DNA of 33,092 nucleotides from NCBI GenBank assembly GCA_007135125.1, contig SLJK01000073.1, positions 1 to 33,092 of the forward strand, in the 5' to 3' direction. Below the pieces are notes generated by a model, which did no database searches, was not told where the DNA came from, and saw nothing but the letters and a program-made list of their open reading frames with translations. Both the position numbers and the translations under genes were made by a program. The stretch's first letter is position 1; each line of letters starts with the position of its first letter. This document shows positions 1,162-1,509 of this stretch, in pieces. This stretch comes from Syntrophomonadaceae bacterium (GTDB lineage: Bacteria > Bacillota > Dethiobacteria > DTU022 > UBA8154).

Positions 1162-1212
1162 GGGAAAAGAACTGTATAGTGATAAATTTATCGGATTTTT
1201 GGGGGGAGTAAA

Positions 1213-1509
1213 TTGATTAAAGTAACACAAAAAGCAGCTGACAAAATAGAAGAACTAATGAAAAAGGAAGGTGGGAGAGAAAAACAGGTACGCATTAACC
1301 TGGATAGTGTAACCTGAGGGGGCCCAAGTTTTAGCCTGGCTCTGGAAGAGCCGAGCAATTATATTGGGGATGAAGAGGTTTCTGTTCGCGGCATGAGGAT
1401 TGTTTATGAGAGCCAATTAGCACGCTATTTAGCAGGAAAGATGCTTGATTTCACCACTGGAAACTTTGCCCCAGAATTTAAAGTCCAGGACTTTCGTCCT
1501 GGAGAGTGA
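1213..1509 (+). CDS. HesB/IscA-like selenoprotein (UGA at codon 35 read as selenocysteine)
   Basis: Start is TTG 1213, five bases after GGGGGGAG. The frame meets TGA at 1315-1317 (codon 35), continues with protein-like sequence and ends at TGA 1507-1509, for 98 residues. The sequence after the UGA, GGPSFSLALEEP, is the hallmark of the short HesB-like proteins of anaerobes, in which the position before GGP is a cysteine. Here the UGA sits exactly at that cysteine. A hairpin with G in its loop lies 20 bases beyond the UGA, as bacterial Sec insertion requires. HesB-like selenoproteins are a known Sec family. IscA/HesB proteins are linked to iron-sulfur cluster handling, but this short form lacks the C-terminal CGC motif of true IscA, so its reaction is unknown; a redox role for Sec is inferred. 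An automatic gene finder would cut this gene at the UGA or miss it. Confidence 0.85.
1338..1352 (+). promoter_or_regulatory. bSECIS-like hairpin for selenocysteine insertion
   Basis: GGCTC (1338-1342) pairs perfectly with GAGCC (1348-1352), closing the loop TGGAA. The first loop G (1344) is 27 bases after the UGA, within the roughly 16-37 base window seen for bacterial SECIS elements, which are bound by SelB. The hairpin lies inside the coding sequence and is translated as Leu-Ala-Leu-Glu-Glu-Pro. Confidence 0.7.

Follow-up and report, generated by a model that had tools for sequence, protein, structure and literature searches.

The in-frame UGA at positions 1315–1317 of the analysed DNA is, judging from sequence comparisons, very probably decoded as selenocysteine (Sec), and the gene that contains it is very probably a real selenoprotein gene. 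The window, i.e. the whole stretch of 33,092 nucleotides, lies in contig C62 of a 2.0 Mb MAG that is 94% complete. The locus would represent a stand-alone selenoprotein gene of the HesB/IscA-like type, in which SelB together with Sec-tRNA(Sec) would decode the internal UGA, a hairpin at positions 1337–1353 would direct the insertion of Sec at this codon, and translation would terminate at a second UGA (1507–1509). The recoding signal, the decoding machinery and the conservation and selection of the gene were read from the sequences, and the fold of the product was predicted.

The gene and its expression signals

The gene (positions 1213–1509, forward strand) starts with TTG at 1213, encodes 98 residues and matches PF01521 and TIGR00049. 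Its translation reads MIKVTQKAADKIEELMKKEGGREKQVRINLDSVT-U-GGPSFSLALEEP...KVQDFRPGE, with a single in-frame TGA as putative Sec codon for residue 35, in the column of the first conserved cysteine of the A-type carrier fold. This agrees with the earlier note, which had described a HesB-like frame running through the TGA at the cysteine of a C-G-G-P motif. The classic IscA motif is C-S-G, and the motif given in that note is the right one for the HesB-like selenoprotein branch (U-G-G-P). The proposed ribosome-binding site was also found, as the G-rich sequence GGGGGAG (1202–1208, forward strand) 4 nt ahead of the TTG. For the proposed promoter, a sigma-70-like TTGAGA-N18-TATAAT is indeed present on the forward strand (1132–1161) and agrees with the consensus at 11 of 12 positions; this assignment is a consensus match alone, and a regional scan around this site gave no more promoter-like sites than shuffled sequences.

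The terminating UGA provides an internal contrast to the UGA at 1315, since inspection by eye revealed no SECIS-like hairpin on its 3' side. A perfect 8-bp inverted repeat, TCCAGGAC-TTTC-GTCCTGGA, occupies the extreme 3' end of the coding sequence (1484–1503) and is not accompanied by a T-run on the forward strand. Upstream of the selenoprotein gene, a short gene for an Xre-type helix-turn-helix protein (HTH_3) lies on the reverse strand (611–814). An ADP-ribosylglycohydrolase gene (PF03747, 1852–2741) is split into two frames with the middle missing: positions 1963–2241 correspond to profile positions 37–126 and positions 2213–2575 to profile positions 192–286, with a frame change between them, which indicates either a pseudogene or an assembly error.

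Selenocysteine machinery of the host

The earlier note had concluded that the host must synthesize Sec, and the components required for this were detected in the host genome. A tRNA-Sec with the anticodon UCA scored above the cut-off (75.9 bits), and profile searches identified selB (399 bits) and selD (387 bits, locus L018 on contig C54). SelA is represented only by its C-terminal part, comprising the last 78 profile positions, which is encoded immediately ahead of selB at the edge of contig C28. The selD gene itself carries an in-frame TGA (context SSAGUAAKLGP) and is thus a selenoprotein gene. Two PF01521 genes occur in this genome, one in the window and one on contig C85, and each contains exactly one TGA.

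The SECIS hairpin

A bacterial SECIS hairpin is located on the forward strand at positions 1337–1353. Its stem is formed by G1338–C1342 and G1348–C1352, extended by U1337–G1353, and encloses the loop UGGAA (1343–1347). The hairpin with a G-containing loop described in the earlier note is therefore present, with 5–6 rather than just five pairs and at a distance of 25 nt, not 27 nt, between UGA and loop. Bacterial SECIS elements have been delimited by a loop of 3–9 nt, a stem of 4–16 bp, a G in the first two loop positions, a distance of 16–37 nt after the UGA and a minimum free energy of at most -7.5 (PMC13188914). The hairpin lies within these limits: its loop measures 5 nt and has G as the second base, the UGA is 25 nt away, and the free energy is -13.4 kcal/mol.

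The free energy of the single window sequence did not differ significantly from that of shuffled sequences (z ~0); the energy of the lone hairpin would thus have missed the SECIS element, and it is the conservation across homologues that reveals the signal. In 62 ungapped aligned homologues, the full seven-pair stem was formed in 44 sequences and at least five stem pairs in 61, in comparison to 0.6% and ~1.5%, respectively, under synonymous-codon randomisation. Over the seven-pair stem, 95.3% of the cells were paired. Double changes affected 23 stem cells versus 8.3 in shuffles, and none of 500 shuffles reached this number; compensatory examples are GGCUC/GAGCC, GACUC/GAGUC and UUAACUC/GAGUUAA. 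Covariation of the stem amounted to 0.272, whereas slid versions gave at most 0.09. Codon choice within the stem was invariant: Leu was encoded by CTG (62/62; background 91/332) and Glu by GAG (62/62; background 129/462), and the Ala/Thr codon ended with T in all 62 sequences. Rfam showed no SECIS match at the hairpin, which is uninformative, because its model SECIS_1 (RF00031) was likewise silent in all 14 control genomes.

Conservation of the UGA codon and selection on the protein

Among 100 relatives, all 66 hits contained one TGA. Across the class (98 genomes), TGA was present in 70 of 70 full-length homologues, and two C-terminal pieces did not contain it; selB exceeded the cut-off in 86 of these genomes. 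A phylum-wide sample of 399 genomes comprised Sec forms as well as Cys forms. As anticipated in the earlier note, cysteine occurs at the UGA position in other homologues: the column is occupied by TGA in 129, TGC in seven and TGT in two of 138 homologues, a ratio of 129:9 that is not a frequency, because the homologues read out were chosen mainly among TGA hits. The nine Cys forms stem from the wider phylum.

The conserved protein sequence claimed for both sides of the UGA was recovered in the comparison with the two nearest relatives (63% and 53% identity), in which dN/dS was 0.15–0.30 before and 0.07–0.28 after this codon. The protein is thus under purifying selection of similar strength on either side. 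Termination at the proper C-terminus was also borne out, as the three genes stop at nearly identical positions, the window gene with TGA and these two relatives with TAA or TAG.

One of the Cys forms (L090, contig C13 of genome G100, 1501–1815) possesses TGC and a partly decayed SECIS-like stem, GGCTCTGGATGATTC. The same genome also holds a Sec copy, and L090 looks like a Sec-to-Cys change following duplication.

Family assignment and predicted fold

With Cys in place of Sec, the read-through product matched Pfam Fe-S_biosyn (PF01521) with 28.7 bits (gathering threshold 26.3; E 1.6e-6), and TIGR00049 matched along its length. An AlphaFold2 model reached a pLDDT of 87. When this model was compared with the PDB by Foldseek, IscA, HI1723 and SufA were among the best matches (best hits 1r94, 2apn and 1s98, probability 1.00), with TM-scores of 0.68–0.77 among the significant matches, which points to an IscA fold. 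When the protein was aligned with HI1723 by profile, the TGA codon coincided with the first conserved cysteine.

In classical A-type carriers, this first cysteine and a C-terminal CxC together serve as ligands of Fe or Fe-S. The predicted fold resembles that of the carriers IscA, ErpA and SufA (PDB 1r94, 1s98, 1x0g, 2d2a); however, the window protein has Sec instead of the first cysteine and lacks the C-terminal CxC, so that the three cysteines of an A-type carrier are not present. From fold and family, we infer that the protein has an A-type carrier site. The product would accordingly adopt an A-type (IscA/ErpA) fold, in which Sec would take the place of the first of the three cysteine ligands for Fe or an Fe-S cluster.

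A clade without cysteine and a second Sec-HesB protein

Beside Sec at residue 35, the window protein contains no cysteine at all. It forms a clade on a long branch (support 100/99) with two homologues, one from a 'Syntrophomonadaceae bacterium' (L024, genome G022, record SLRC01000197.1) and one from an 'uncultured Firmicutes' (L025, genome G003), and all three proteins possess Sec and are free of cysteine. The sister of this clade is L026, a homologue with a Cys tail from a relative at the order level, and not the paralogue from the own genome. In G003 the Cys-free copy alone was found, the absence of another copy being provisional in a MAG. A search for conserved gene order around the members of the clade revealed none.

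Most relatives retain at least one C-terminal cysteine, and each of the nine Cys forms read out has at least three. The tail cysteines are absent in 18 of 128 complete Sec forms, which belong to several separate clades. The idea that the loss was unique to the window clade had arisen from 63 proteins; it was ruled out when 80 further loci were included.

The paralogue in the host genome (L021, contig C85, 1435–1743) is also a Sec-HesB protein with the same SECIS type, but it is only 31% identical to the window protein and keeps a C-terminal CDSCC tail. Divergently oriented to this gene is a small open reading frame (2043–2396) whose product, by eye, looks like a CsoR-type metal-sensing repressor.

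Alternative explanations

The TGA might be a true stop, and the frame downstream of it the relic of a gene inactivated by a nonsense mutation. Gene decay does occur in the neighbourhood, as seen from the broken ADP-ribosylglycohydrolase gene, and the energy of the hairpin by itself is unremarkable. Against such a relic stand the identical TGA in all full-length homologues of the class, the equally low dN/dS downstream of it, the covariation and fixed synonymous codons of the SECIS element and the termination of relatives at the same C-terminus via different codons, which together make this explanation highly improbable. Even less credible is an assembly or sequencing error in an ordinary Cys protein. 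The sequence is a MAG contig and the adjacent gene is frameshifted, but a misread TGC or TGT at 1315 is contradicted by the conservation of TGA, along with a covarying SECIS element, in dozens of independently assembled genomes; the Cys forms do not need this hairpin, and L090 retains only part of it. The in-frame UGA within a conserved frame would also be expected if UGA were reassigned throughout the genome, e.g. to Trp or Gly, and no local recoding took place. In the window, though, all three stop codons are in use and four of 27 genes, including the selenoprotein gene itself, end with TGA, so that UGA is no general sense codon; moreover, the UGA column aligns with Cys and not with Trp or Gly, and the Sec machinery is encoded in the host genome. 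Reassignment is hence considered just as extremely improbable as the sequence error.

A further alternative accepts the recoding and regards the protein as a conventional IscA/ErpA-like Fe-S carrier, in which Sec merely substitutes for one Cys ligand. The fold is the same, the reactive residue occupies the same position, and the C-terminal Cys tail is kept by most Sec homologues. In the window clade, however, the ligands of the C-terminal CxC are missing together with all other cysteines, and this explanation appears rather unlikely, albeit far more plausible than the three discussed above.

Putative role of the protein

As to the role of the Cys-free selenoprotein, the window protein and its two relatives would have lost the C-terminal Cys tail, which would leave Sec as the sole thiol or selenol group. 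One Sec without any cysteine is unlikely to act alone as a three-Cys carrier. It is therefore more likely that the one selenolate per subunit ligates a metal or an Fe-S cluster jointly with the other subunit of a dimer or with a partner, or that it functions as a redox selenol. The chances that this describes the biochemical role are about even, and this proposal is much less certain than the selenoprotein reading itself. More speculatively, Sec-only, Cys-less HesB proteins might have arisen several times, with the selenol of the window clade having adopted a role other than three-Cys cluster carrying; binding of metal or selenium, or a diselenide/selenol redox switch across the dimer, are tentative examples, doubtful even when taken together.

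Relation to known seleno-HesB proteins and their annotation

Sec-HesB was already termed known in 2005 (PMC1242214), HesB-like selenoproteins were catalogued in 2006 with 11 genes tabulated (PMC1794560), and the family was listed in 2026 with the signature UxGP (PMC13188914). Since knowledge of such proteins goes back about 20 years, the window gene is a new, divergent member and not a new kind of selenoprotein. This family context, like the lack of cysteine and the second Sec-HesB gene in the genome, goes beyond the earlier note. In the literature searched, Dethiobacter, to whose vicinity the host probably belongs judging from the records of its relatives, was mentioned together with selenoproteins in one paper, where the latter term occurs once. 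With the TIGR01911 family (HesB_rel_seleno), the window protein shares the small PF01521 type, Sec at the first conserved cysteine, the U-G-G-P motif and a host type of Sec-decoding, mostly anaerobic bacteria; it differs from this family by T instead of G directly before Sec and by the absence of cysteine.

The window protein scored 30.2 bits with TIGR01911 (curated cut-off 66.35) and 44.6 bits with NF038090 (IscA_HesB_Se; curated cut-off 85), although it matches nearly the full length of the latter profile (E 1.4e-11). The paralogue L021 and the other relatives scanned also remained below both cut-offs. As it scores under both, automatic annotation probably truncates or misses the window gene, which makes the corresponding suggestion of the earlier note plausible. 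Across the whole bacterial class, every full-length HesB homologue found was of the seleno form, and as divergent members are missed by the curated models, public annotation probably contains such genes in truncated form.
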